DNA of 64,000 bases from Dehalococcoidia bacterium. Its GTDB lineage: Bacteria > Chloroflexota > Dehalococcoidia > Dehalococcoidales > Fen-1064. The notes beneath the pieces were generated by a model, which did not search any database, was not told the DNA's origin, and saw nothing but the letters and a program-made list of their open reading frames with translations. The first letter of the stretch is position 1. Each line of letters opens with the position of its first letter. Shown here one piece after another: positions 9,130 through 12,200 of this stretch. A program made the position numbers and the translations under genes. Location: NCBI GenBank assembly GCA_011170375.1, contig DUEV01000002.1, positions 124,001 through 188,000 of the forward strand, in the 5' to 3' direction.

Positions 9130-9256
9130 AAGCCCGGCGGCAATAAGGTGCGAAATAGCACCAAAGGTCACAGATACGAGCAAAATCATTCTGGTGGGAA
9201 TGGATATCTACGTACCGGTGATTTAAGGAAGGCAATATCGTAGTTTGAGGTGACGT

Positions 9257-10084
9257 ATGATTGAATTGCCGGAAGCCGAATGCCTGTCAAGGCAACTAAC
9301 AGGGACAATCGGCGGTAAAAAGATTGCGGGAGTGGTCGCCGGTCTATCTCCACATAAGTTCGCCTGGTACCATGGCGACCCCAAGGACTACGATGCTCTA
9401 TTGCGTAGCAAAATCATTAACACAGCCGTAGCCCGCGGAGGTATGGTGGAAGTAAGGATCGGTGATGCTGTGGCACTTTTTAGCGACGGTACCGCACTAA
9501 GGTTTCATACCAGAGACGAACAGCGTCCCAAGAAGCACCAATTGCTAATCGAATTCGAGGACGGCACTGCCATCAGTGCCTCCGTTCAGATGTATGGCGG
9601 CCTGTGGTGCTTCAAGGAGGGTGAATTTCACAATCCCTACTACGACTCCGCTAGAGGCAAGCCTTCACCTTTGTCAGATGAGTTCGATGAGGCATACTTC
9701 GATAGCCTCATCTCTTCTGGCGAAGTCCAGAAGCTGAGTGCTAAGGCATTCCTGGCCACCGAGCAGAGAATGCCGGGCCTGGGGAATGGTGTCTTGCAGG
9801 ACATCCTCCACAACGCCAGGATTCATCCGAGGCGGACGATAGCTACCCTCACTGACGACGAGAGGAAAGCTCTTTTCCAATCTGTAAAATCTACTCTCAA
9901 GGAGATGACCGCACAGGGAGGCAGGGACACGACAAGCGACCTGTTCGGTAAACCGGGAGGATATGTAACTAAGCTCAGTCAGAATACCGTTGATAAACCC
10001 TGCCCGATATGCGGCGGAACGATTATCAAACAGTCGTACATGGGCGGCAGTATATACTTCTGCGACGGGTGTCAAAAAGTTTAG
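9257..10084 (+). CDS. Fpg/Nei-family DNA glycosylase-like protein lacking Pro2
   Basis: A 275-residue protein with the full architecture of formamidopyrimidine-DNA glycosylase/endonuclease VIII. It has an N-terminal domain starting M-I-E-L-P-E-A-E, a helix-two-turn-helix region (M-P-G-L-G-N-G-V-L-Q-D-I-L, R-I-H-P-R-R), and a C-terminal zinc finger with paired C-x2-C (C-P-I-C and C-D-G-C). Canonical Fpg/Nei enzymes begin M-P-E-L-P-E, and Pro2 is the Schiff-base nucleophile after Met removal. Here residue 2 is Ile, while Glu3 and the rest are kept. It may be a glycosylase with another nucleophile or a DNA-binding relative. The start is supported by GAGGTGACGT before ATG; no upstream ATG would restore a proline. 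The following PPOX gene is close and codirectional. Confidence 0.88.
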   Translation: MIELPEAECLSRQLTGTIGGKKIAGVVAGLSPHKFAWYHGDPKDYDALLRSKIINTAVARGGMVEVRIGDAVALFSDGTALRFHTRDEQRPKKHQLLIEFEDGTAISASVQMYGGLWCFKEGEFHNPYYDSARGKPSPLSDEFDEAYFDSLISSGEVQKLSAKAFLATEQRMPGLGNGVLQDILHNARIHPRRTIATLTDDERKALFQSVKSTLKEMTAQGGRDTTSDLFGKPGGYVTKLSQNTVDKPCPICGGTIIKQSYMGGSIYFCDGCQKV

Positions 10085-10745: not shown

Positions 10746-10858
10746 GTACGCCAAACCCGACCTCTAGACCAGCGATATTCTGGTTGATGGGCGGGAGAGG
10801 AAGGTAGAAGAGGCACTGGAATCGCTACTATGAGGCAGCCAGTGCCTTATCTTTTAGA
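10727..10858 (+). ncRNA. Candidate structured leader RNA / attenuator, copy A
   Basis: About 130 bases between the promoter at 10692-10720 and the lipoprotein gene. It holds an internal hairpin (ACCAG-CGATATT-CTGGT, about 10768-10784) flanked by C-rich and G-rich arms that can pair (CCCGACC with GGGCGGG, one mismatch). It ends in AGGCACTGG (10811-10819) pairing with CCAGTGCCT (10839-10847), followed by TATCTTTT, a terminator-like end. Copy B at 13479 has the same order, a related purine-rich linker (GGTAGAAGAGG versus GAAGAGGTAAGAG), the same A-A-T-C-G after the first terminator arm, and compensating base changes in the terminator stem (CACTGG/CCAGTG versus CACCAG/CTGGTG). Covariation suggests a real RNA. 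It could be a riboswitch-like attenuator of the next gene or a free small RNA. Confidence 0.45.
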
Positions 10859-10883
10859 AATAGAAGAGTGGGGTAATCAAGAA

Positions 10884-12200
10884 ATGAAGAGGAAATTGCT
10901 ATGGCTGTTTCTTAGTTGTCTTGTGGTTCTAACTCTAGTAGCGTGGTCTTGCGGTGGGACAACGTCTGTGAATGGGGAAGAGGAAGAAGAGGAGGAAGAA
11001 CTGAAACCGTCGGAGGTTGGTGAGTGCACTTTTGAAATAGATGTTGTAGGCCAGGGTAATACCAATCCCAGTCTAGGTAGTCATACATATGTCGGAGGTC
11101 ATGAGTTAACCATCACAGCAGAACCTGAACAGGGTTATCATTTCGTCGGTTGGGGTGGTGATATCCAGAGTACCTCGGATATTGTTCTTATTATCGTCGA
11201 CAGGGACATAAGTGTGACCGCGTATTTCGAGCTAGAAGAACCCGATCTTGTAACACTTGTGATCAACATTATTGGGCCTGGAACTACTGAACCTGAACCA
11301 GATGCATACACCTATGACAAAAACGCAAGCGTAACCATCACTGCAAAACCTGATACCTATGCTCACTTTATGGGATGGAGCGGAAATATTTCAGGTACCT
11401 CTCTCGAAATAACCATCACGATGGACAGTGATAAGGCTATTACAGCTAACTTCGAACGAGACCAGGTAACACTCGACTTAGCCATGACAGGAGAGGGAGG
11501 AGGGATCATTCCCACTGTGGGAGTGTATACCTATGATAAGGGAACTCTGGTGACTGTTGAAGTGGATTACGTCGATGAGGATACTGCATATTTCGATGGC
11601 TGGTATAACCTGCAAGGAGCTCAGGTGAGTGATGAGTACAACTATAGCTTCGATATCAAGAATGACACTTATCTTGAGGCTCGTTTCGTACGGCTGTTTT
11701 ATTTCAGCTATAGCTGGCAAGGTCCAGGGAGTGTGGAAAGTAGCCAATCTGCAGGTATCTATGGTGAGGGCACCGAGATAACTGCAACGAGTTATCCCGA
11801 TTCAGGAGCATGTTTTGTTGGTTGGTTTTACAATAATGGATATCTAGTAAGTCAGCAGAATCCATATCAGGTTATCATGAGTGGTGATATTCAACTCGAG
11901 GCTCGTTTCGCTACAGCAATATCACTCGTGATTAACGTTGATGGACCAGGTAGCAGCAATCCTACTGAAGGCATACATTGGTATTGCCAAGGAAGTCAGG
12001 AATCAATCACTGTCACGCCTGATCCGGGTGCTCATCTCGTAAGTTGGACCGTGGATAGTTATACAATTTTCTCCTCGGATTGGTCCGTTCATTTAGACTT
12101 CGGGTCACATATATTTCGGGTCTATAATAGTGCTGGCATCCTAATGGCTATATTTACTTCTAACGAAGACGTGCATGTTAATATTGTGTTTGATTCATAA
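10884..12200 (+). CDS. Secreted lipoprotein with five InlB-type B repeats
   Basis: 438 residues from the ATG at 10884. An ATG at 10830 lies inside the upstream terminator hairpin and would place 18 residues before the signal sequence, so I reject it. Residues 1-23 are a lipoprotein leader, M-K-R-K-L-L-W then a hydrophobic core ending L-V-A-W-S-C, with Cys23 as lipid site; Trp at -2 is unusual. A linker with eight consecutive glutamates follows, then about five repeats of 65-75 residues. Each has G-x-G near the start, a Y or H-T-Y turn, an I-T-A-x-P-x-x-G/Y segment, F-x-G-W and a closing A-x-F. This is the Listeria-Bacteroides/InlB B-repeat type found on cell-surface proteins. Probably a surface-exposed adhesin-like or spacer protein. 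The leader matches that of the binding protein at 35092. Confidence 0.85.
   Translation: MKRKLLWLFLSCLVVLTLVAWSCGGTTSVNGEEEEEEEELKPSEVGECTFEIDVVGQGNTNPSLGSHTYVGGHELTITAEPEQGYHFVGWGGDIQSTSDIVLIIVDRDISVTAYFELEEPDLVTLVINIIGPGTTEPEPDAYTYDKNASVTITAKPDTYAHFMGWSGNISGTSLEITITMDSDKAITANFERDQVTLDLAMTGEGGGIIPTVGVYTYDKGTLVTVEVDYVDEDTAYFDGWYNLQGAQVSDEYNYSFDIKNDTYLEARFVRLFYFSYSWQGPGSVESSQSAGIYGEGTEITATSYPDSGACFVGWFYNNGYLVSQQNPYQVIMSGDIQLEARFATAISLVINVDGPGSSNPTEGIHWYCQGSQESITVTPDPGAHLVSWTVDSYTIFSSDWSVHLDFGSHIFRVYNSAGILMAIFTSNEDVHVNIVFDS

Follow-up and report, generated by a model that had tools for sequence, protein, structure and literature searches.

The window analysed here is a 64,000-nt stretch of contig DUEV01000002.1 from a Dehalococcoidia bacterium, and all coordinates are positions within it. 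It contains an ORF whose product begins MIELPE (Table 1). The sequence-only reading had described the ribosome site as good and the start as secure, and both descriptions hold. An upstream start is impossible because an in-frame TGA lies just ahead of the ATG and the one codon between them is CGT. A start at codon 4 (TTG), the sole route to a proline at residue 2 (M-P-E-A), was rejected since the relatives contradict it. Of 45 related loci, 4 have TTG at codon 4 and the others CTA, ATA, ATC, ACA, TGT or similar; Met1 is also in register in each of the 39 members aligned. With these alternatives excluded, the isoleucine in place of the catalytic Pro2 of Fpg, on which the sequence-only reading rested, is genuine. 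The gene is flanked by genes for MaoC-like dehydratases and a pyridoxamine-phosphate-oxidase-like protein, neither of which was found among the neighbours listed for its closest relative (L004). Further along the forward strand (10830-12200), a long lipoprotein-like ORF with several repeat units, GxGxTxP...G-x-H-x-F-x-G-W, was recognised by eye.

Table 1. Features of the MIELPE-type gene and its product in the window.
Feature	Position	Strand	Details
MIELPE-type Fpg-fold protein ORF	9257..10084	+	275 aa + TAG; MIELPE...CQKV
GAGGTG ribosome-binding site	9247..9252	+	4 nt before ATG; from sequence
In-frame TGA stop	9251..9253	+	two codons before ATG; from sequence
Ile2 codon, catalytic Pro2 site of Fpg	9260..9262	+	clade Ile 39, Leu 5, Met 1 (n=45); never Pro, never Val
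Glu3	9263..9265	+	kept in 45/45
Family-specific loop, residues 29-45 (SPHKFAW...DPxxY)	9341..9391	+	His33, Phe35, Tyr45 invariant
Gly62 at catalytic/phosphate-binding Lys (Lys57 E. coli, Lys60 Bst)	9440..9442	+	Lys in 0/45 clade vs 32/32 Fpg
H2TH domain PF06831, residues 136-224	9662..9928	+	Asn177 in 45/45
Lesion-recognition-loop equivalent, residues 221-236	9917..9964	+	clade pattern GGRDTE-DLFG-PGGY
C4 zinc finger, residues 249-273	10001..10075	+	four Cys in 44/44
Gly264 at zinc-finger Arg (Arg264 Bst)	10046..10048	+	Gly in 44/44 clade vs Arg in 32/32 Fpg

Fold and sequence similarity place the product of this ORF in the Fpg/Nei superfamily, taken broadly. An AF2 model of the 275-aa protein, calculated with 39 natural homologues as input (pLDDT 94.6, pTM 0.90), contains the N-terminal β-sandwich, H2TH and C4 zinc finger of the Fpg fold. 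Its best structural match in Foldseek and VIA-align was MutM 1r2y over residues 2-274 (Z 28.4, rmsd 2.4, 264 aligned residues), with residue 2 of the model as the first aligned residue, opposite residue 2 of MutM. Nei 1k3x matched with a Z of 24.0, and among the structural matches listed the closest folds were all Fpg/Nei. A phmmer comparison with 4cis gave E 3e-20. In Pfam, H2TH scored over its cut-off (37.1 vs 34.7 bits), and the N-terminal Fapy domain narrowly missed its own (23.3 vs 25.5 bits). The NCBIfam fpg model TIGR00577 stayed below its equivalog cut-off (92.3 vs 203.3 bits; E 3e-26), as did the Nei model PRK10445 (38.2 vs 252 bits) and the Nei2 model NF040775 (17.4 vs 400 bits) below theirs. 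Because Pro2, Lys57 and the zinc-finger Arg are all missing and the equivalog score falls short, the protein is not filed as Fpg. One member of the clade described below is annotated as 'DNA-formamidopyrimidine glycosylase family protein'.

Alignment with MIELPE-type homologues, a step that the sequence-only reading had proposed, indicates that the Ile2 protein is a family and not a mutation or oddity of a single genome. Scanning one genome per species yielded 45 loci. For the sequence set, exact duplicates, sequences below 225 aa and sequences containing X were dropped, which left 84 of 98 matches, and the comparison set of 45 non-redundant members, spread across four phyla, also took in loci from the whole-genome searches. 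The hosts are Dehalococcoidia, Anaerolineae, other Chloroflexota, Clostridia, other Bacillota, Bacteroidota and one Propionibacteriaceae bin; judged from their names, most are presumably anaerobe groups. In a quick-search tree a branch with 99% SH-aLRT support has the 45 members together on one side. Chloroflexota members fall at more than one place, and the closest members from Dehalococcoidia sit among those of Clostridia, a pattern suggestive of horizontal transfer. Within Chloroflexota the distribution is patchy: a close member (E < 1e-100) was present in 5 of 301 genomes and an L054-type gene in one. Two fecal contigs labelled as phage carry members; since these contigs are unverified and unannotated and no relative turned up when viral contigs were scanned, the idea of a phage gene was rejected.

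Several sequences stand at the edges of the family. L054/L124 (Chloroflexota), the sister that adjoins the clade, has Phe2 and an Arg at the Lys57 position; its zinc finger shows the GG of the clade and is encoded in a different frame, indicating a frameshift or an assembly error. The member genes L044 and L047 are split or truncated (open frames of 120 aa and 66 aa) and are possible pseudogenes or sequence errors. L082 (Chloroflexota) is an otherwise canonical Fpg that begins MAELPE, with Ala2 for Pro2 and with Lys57 and the zinc-finger Arg retained; removal of Met is expected before Ala, so that it may be a natural primary-amine Fpg.

Residues were compared between the 45 members, 32 canonical Fpg and six hand-picked Pro2-bearing Chloroflexota paralogues, the last a 'sister' group that is not one clade in the tree, with L058 sitting among Fpg. 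Position 2 is Pro in 31 Fpg and Ala in one, and Pro in all six paralogues; three additional members of the clade (one of them L110) have Ile, Ile and Leu there. Glu3, listed as present by the sequence-only reading, is kept throughout the clade, and Glu6 is kept in all but one member, which has Asp. In the Lys57 column, Gly stands in 28 members, Ser in 6, Ala in 4 and Met in 4; the other three were read by eye as Ile (2) and Glu (1). At the intercalating Arg109/112 the clade has Gln (33), Ala (6), Ser (4) and His (1) and, by eye, Arg in one member (L022). The Tyr after GxGN-I (Tyr172 of the reference) is replaced by Val, Cys, Ser or Thr. The H2TH and zinc finger had been described as intact. 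This was borne out for the H2TH and for the four Cys (counted out of 44, one clade row being truncated there), but not for the zinc-finger Arg of Fpg, which is Gly264. The earlier account was therefore incomplete, as in the alignment the Lys57 and zinc-finger Arg equivalents are lost clade-wide and the intercalating Arg in all but one member. In Bst MutM, Asn174, Arg264 and Lys60 are reported to grip jointly the phosphates flanking the lesion (PMC3188539), and two of these three clamp residues are therefore lost in the clade. Lys163 (Lys160 in Bst) is present in 45/45 members. Other positions have become invariant or nearly so: His33, Phe35, Tyr45, Gln95, Met112, Tyr147, Gln170, Pro173, Gly178, Asp182, Arg223 (44/45) and Tyr236 (44/44).

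The pattern of conservation differs from that of Fpg as well. Mean pairwise identity over the whole protein is 0.55 in the clade and 0.43 in Fpg. It is 0.77 vs 0.37 in the lesion-recognition loop (residues 221-236) and 0.70 vs 0.24 in loop 29-45; in the Lys57 segment it is 0.45 vs 0.56. These values indicate that constraint has shifted from the catalytic and phosphate-binding region to the base pocket and the new loop. The dN/dS ratio of the window gene (YN00) was 0.20 against L004, 0.21 against L005 and 0.19 against L007, a clear signature of purifying selection at the sequence level. At residue 226 in the lesion loop the window protein has Thr, as in 3/45 members, where 41/45 have Glu.

The identity of residue 2 bears on the fate of Met1. 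Methionine aminopeptidase is reported to cleave Met only ahead of non-bulky residues (PMC3154147), and NEIL3, with Val2, is reported to be poorly processed in E. coli (PMC5727206). In all seven genomes checked a methionine aminopeptidase scored over the cut-off. Whereas the Val2 of NEIL3 is small enough to let Met1 be removed, all 45 members have Ile, Leu or Met. Eleven columns of the clade are at least half Ile, and position 2 alone among them lacks any Val, which is suggestive and not a test, the sequences being related. A bulky residue 2 is thus probably under selection, and Met1 is predicted to stay on. Since Ile, Leu or Met at position 2 is predicted to hold Met1, a NEIL3-like N-terminal amine would be displaced by one residue.

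The window's genome carries three Fpg/Nei genes: besides the Ile2 gene, it has a canonical Fpg of the VPELPE type (L001) and a paralogue that bears Pro2 (L002). The second Fpg-like paralogue (L002/L068, on contig C1) has similar counterparts in a few other Chloroflexota. Among 13 member-bearing genomes examined, seven have a Pro2-bearing gene too and six have the Ile2 type only: G256, Alkaliphilus serpentinus, Ruminiclostridium hungatei, Clostridium sulfidigenes, Prevotella sp. 10(H) and a Dysgonomonas sp. with two copies. A completeness figure exists for G256 alone among these six (95%). The Dysgonomonas genome (sp. Marseille-P4677) has two MIE-type copies (L110, L122), and no canonical Fpg/Nei was found in it. 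Xth scored over the cut-off in 6/7 genomes, that is, in all six with the Ile2 type only. The exception is the window's genome, with no Xth match and an Nfo match only below the cut-off. This co-occurrence of AP endonucleases with the clade is too general to weigh much. A conserved operon was sought in 50 stretches, and no neighbour recurred beyond a few among those listed. Named by eye among those listed, these were ABC-transporter parts (at least nine loci), a WYL/YafY-like regulator (at least four Clostridia), a small zinc-ribbon protein (at least three loci) and a radical-SAM protein (at least three loci). In some Clostridia (L010, L011, L013, L014, L017) the surroundings of the gene include, judged by eye, a radical-SAM protein resembling spore photoproduct lyase as well as the WYL/YafY-like regulator and the small zinc-ribbon protein.

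The sequence-only reading had reasoned that, with Pro2 absent, the normal Schiff-base chemistry of the N-terminal proline cannot occur and that either another residue acts as nucleophile or the protein is a monofunctional or DNA-sensing relative. Pro2 is indeed absent. Its loss alone is an insufficient argument, however, given NEIL3 with Val2, hNEIL1 P2G and E. coli Fpg P2G and P2T. More weight attaches to the predicted retention of Met1 by Ile, Leu or Met and to the clade-wide loss of the Lys57 and zinc-finger Arg equivalents. The alternatives it listed fare better, as the evidence points toward other chemistry or a sensor. The most likely role is that of a putative glycosylase or base reader that lacks Schiff-base lyase chemistry. 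With rather less than even confidence, we propose from the alignments and the model that these proteins form a clade of their own within the Fpg/Nei superfamily, one that is no longer a Schiff-base glycosylase/lyase and may be a hydrolytic, lyase-free glycosylase. Retention of the Glu and the pocket with the proline dropped fits such an enzyme. In support, Glu3 (45/45) and Glu6 (44/45) persist despite the loss of Pro2 and Lys57. In Mycobacterium smegmatis Nei2, P2A is reported to abolish AP lyase and spare 5-hydroxyuracil glycosylase activity, and E3A to do the reverse, with loss of the glycosylase (PMC11323726). In calculations on Fpg, the first proton transfer reported is from Glu to the ribose O4' (PMC4445063). 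A particular altered base would be flipped or accepted into the conserved pocket. With Met1 retained, no N-terminal amine would reach C1', and Glu3 would protonate the sugar O4'. Water activated by Glu6 or by a new residue such as His33 could then complete a monofunctional excision, and the uncut AP site would be left for an AP endonuclease such as Xth.

The main objection to a glycosylase comes from the same study of Nei2, in which K51A is reported to lose both AP lyase and glycosylase (PMC11323726); by alignment, the matching Lys is absent from the clade. With this Lys and the zinc-finger Arg, which holds lesion phosphates, both absent, DNA binding by the clade may be weak or different. The missing Xth in the window's genome and Thr226 in the window protein also speak against this role. 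A low pI (median 7.06 in the clade vs 9.22 in the Fpg set) was set aside as an argument for lost DNA binding, since the clade's span of 5.2-9.6 overlaps with Fpg and the Pro2-bearing paralogues are also low (6.97).

Other explanations were weighed against the same observations. The protein may be a non-catalytic damage sensor that binds a flipped lesion, as alkyltransferase-like proteins do, and then passes it on or protects it with no bond broken. This somewhat unlikely possibility would explain why the Pro2, Lys57 and zinc-finger Arg equivalents vanish together while the base-pocket loop and H2TH are strongly conserved, and it is consistent with the occurrence of the gene, with no Pro2-bearing paralogue, in 6/13 genomes. 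Mere binding would not need Glu3 and Glu6, however, and a DNA binder should retain the phosphate-binding residues that are lost here. That loss sits more easily with a protein that has left DNA repair and whose former base pocket accommodates a different ligand, for instance a modified nucleoside, a nucleotide or RNA. We consider this unlikely. The broken phosphate clamp (the Lys57 and Arg264 equivalents, and Tyr172 changed to Val, Cys, Ser or Thr), the lower pI and the new conserved loop 29-45 argue for it, as do weak matches of 17/39 members to NFACT_N, a ribosome-associated family, via the H2TH part. Asn177, Lys163, the H2TH and the zinc site are nevertheless retained, the pI span keeps charge from being decisive, and the closest folds among the matches listed are all Fpg/Nei.

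A Schiff-base enzyme of the NEIL3 kind, in which Met1 or an exposed Ile2 supplies the nucleophilic amine, appears improbable. NEIL3 is reported to function with Val2 (PMC5727206) and hNEIL1 P2G still to make an adduct, while about 10% of activity on Fapy is reported to remain in E. coli Fpg P2G/P2T (PMC10164570). Against this, Met is reported to be removed only before non-bulky residues (PMC3154147), position 2 is Ile, Leu or Met and never Val, and the Lys57 equivalent is missing too. Hardly credible is a functionless pseudo-enzyme in decay: the catalytic residues are gone and a few relatives (L044, L047, L054) are interrupted or cut short, yet dN/dS is ~0.2, four phyla contain 45 members of full or nearly full length, and the clade is more conserved than the Fpg set. 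On the sequence data, conservation largely refutes decay. Returning to the glycosylase or base reader, a more specific picture, which we hold as doubtful, is that an Fpg fold that has shed its Schiff-base nucleophile along with most of its phosphate clamp and has tightened its base pocket could serve as a specific hydrolytic glycosylase or reader for an anaerobe base lesion (or a non-DNA nucleoside) and replace Fpg/Nei in some bacteria.

The Ile2 finding is both wider and deeper than the sequence-only reading supposed. An N-terminal proline is the accepted hallmark of the Fpg/Nei superfamily. The subgroup is probably already catalogued, as the uncharacterised CDD cd08975 (BaFpgNei_N_3), in which Ile or Val replaces the N-terminal proline and which is probably the same set as the clade. 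A text search of the open-licence literature found no paper on cd08975 or BaFpgNei_N_3, and no study of Fpg/Nei homologues with Ile2 was found in that literature, which is weak evidence of absence. In the sections covered, the nine-subfamily scheme describes no subfamily as lacking Pro2 (PMC3188539). A conservation study of 124 Fpg sequences reports that only those with the N-terminal Pro-Glu pair were retained (PMC5422863), a filter through which Ile2-type proteins therefore escape notice. As the Ile2 type is the sole family gene in 6/13 genomes, Fpg activity may be wrongly credited there. A natural clade without Pro2 and Lys57 would separate the parts of the active site for base recognition from those for chemistry, and the clade is amenable to testing since its hosts include isolates.

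Compared with Fpg/MutM (BaFpg1 subfamily; 1r2y, 4cis), the clade shares the fold over residues 2-274, Glu3, Glu6, the H2TH Asn, Lys163 as the equivalent of Lys160, and the C4 zinc finger. It differs in lacking Pro2, Lys57/60 and the zinc-finger Arg, in having the intercalating Arg in 1/45 members only, and in its lesion loop. The Pro2-bearing paralogues resemble the clade in part. In the same-genome paralogue L002/L068 and in L055, L056, L057 and L059, the lesion loop GGLAYEKDLYNKPGGF is similar to the clade's GGRDTEKDLFG-PGGY, and the zinc-finger Arg is replaced as in the clade (Thr in 5/6 of those picked). Unlike the clade, they retain Pro2 and Lys57 (6/6) and fall outside it in the tree. 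With Nei (endonuclease VIII; 1k3x) the clade has the fold in common. In mycobacterial Nei2 the glycosylase survives without Pro2, yet Lys51 is required, and the clade lacks that Lys. NEIL3, like the clade, has a residue other than proline at position 2 of an Fpg/Nei fold, but its Val2 is exposed by removal of Met, whereas the Ile, Leu or Met of the clade is expected to keep Met1 in place.
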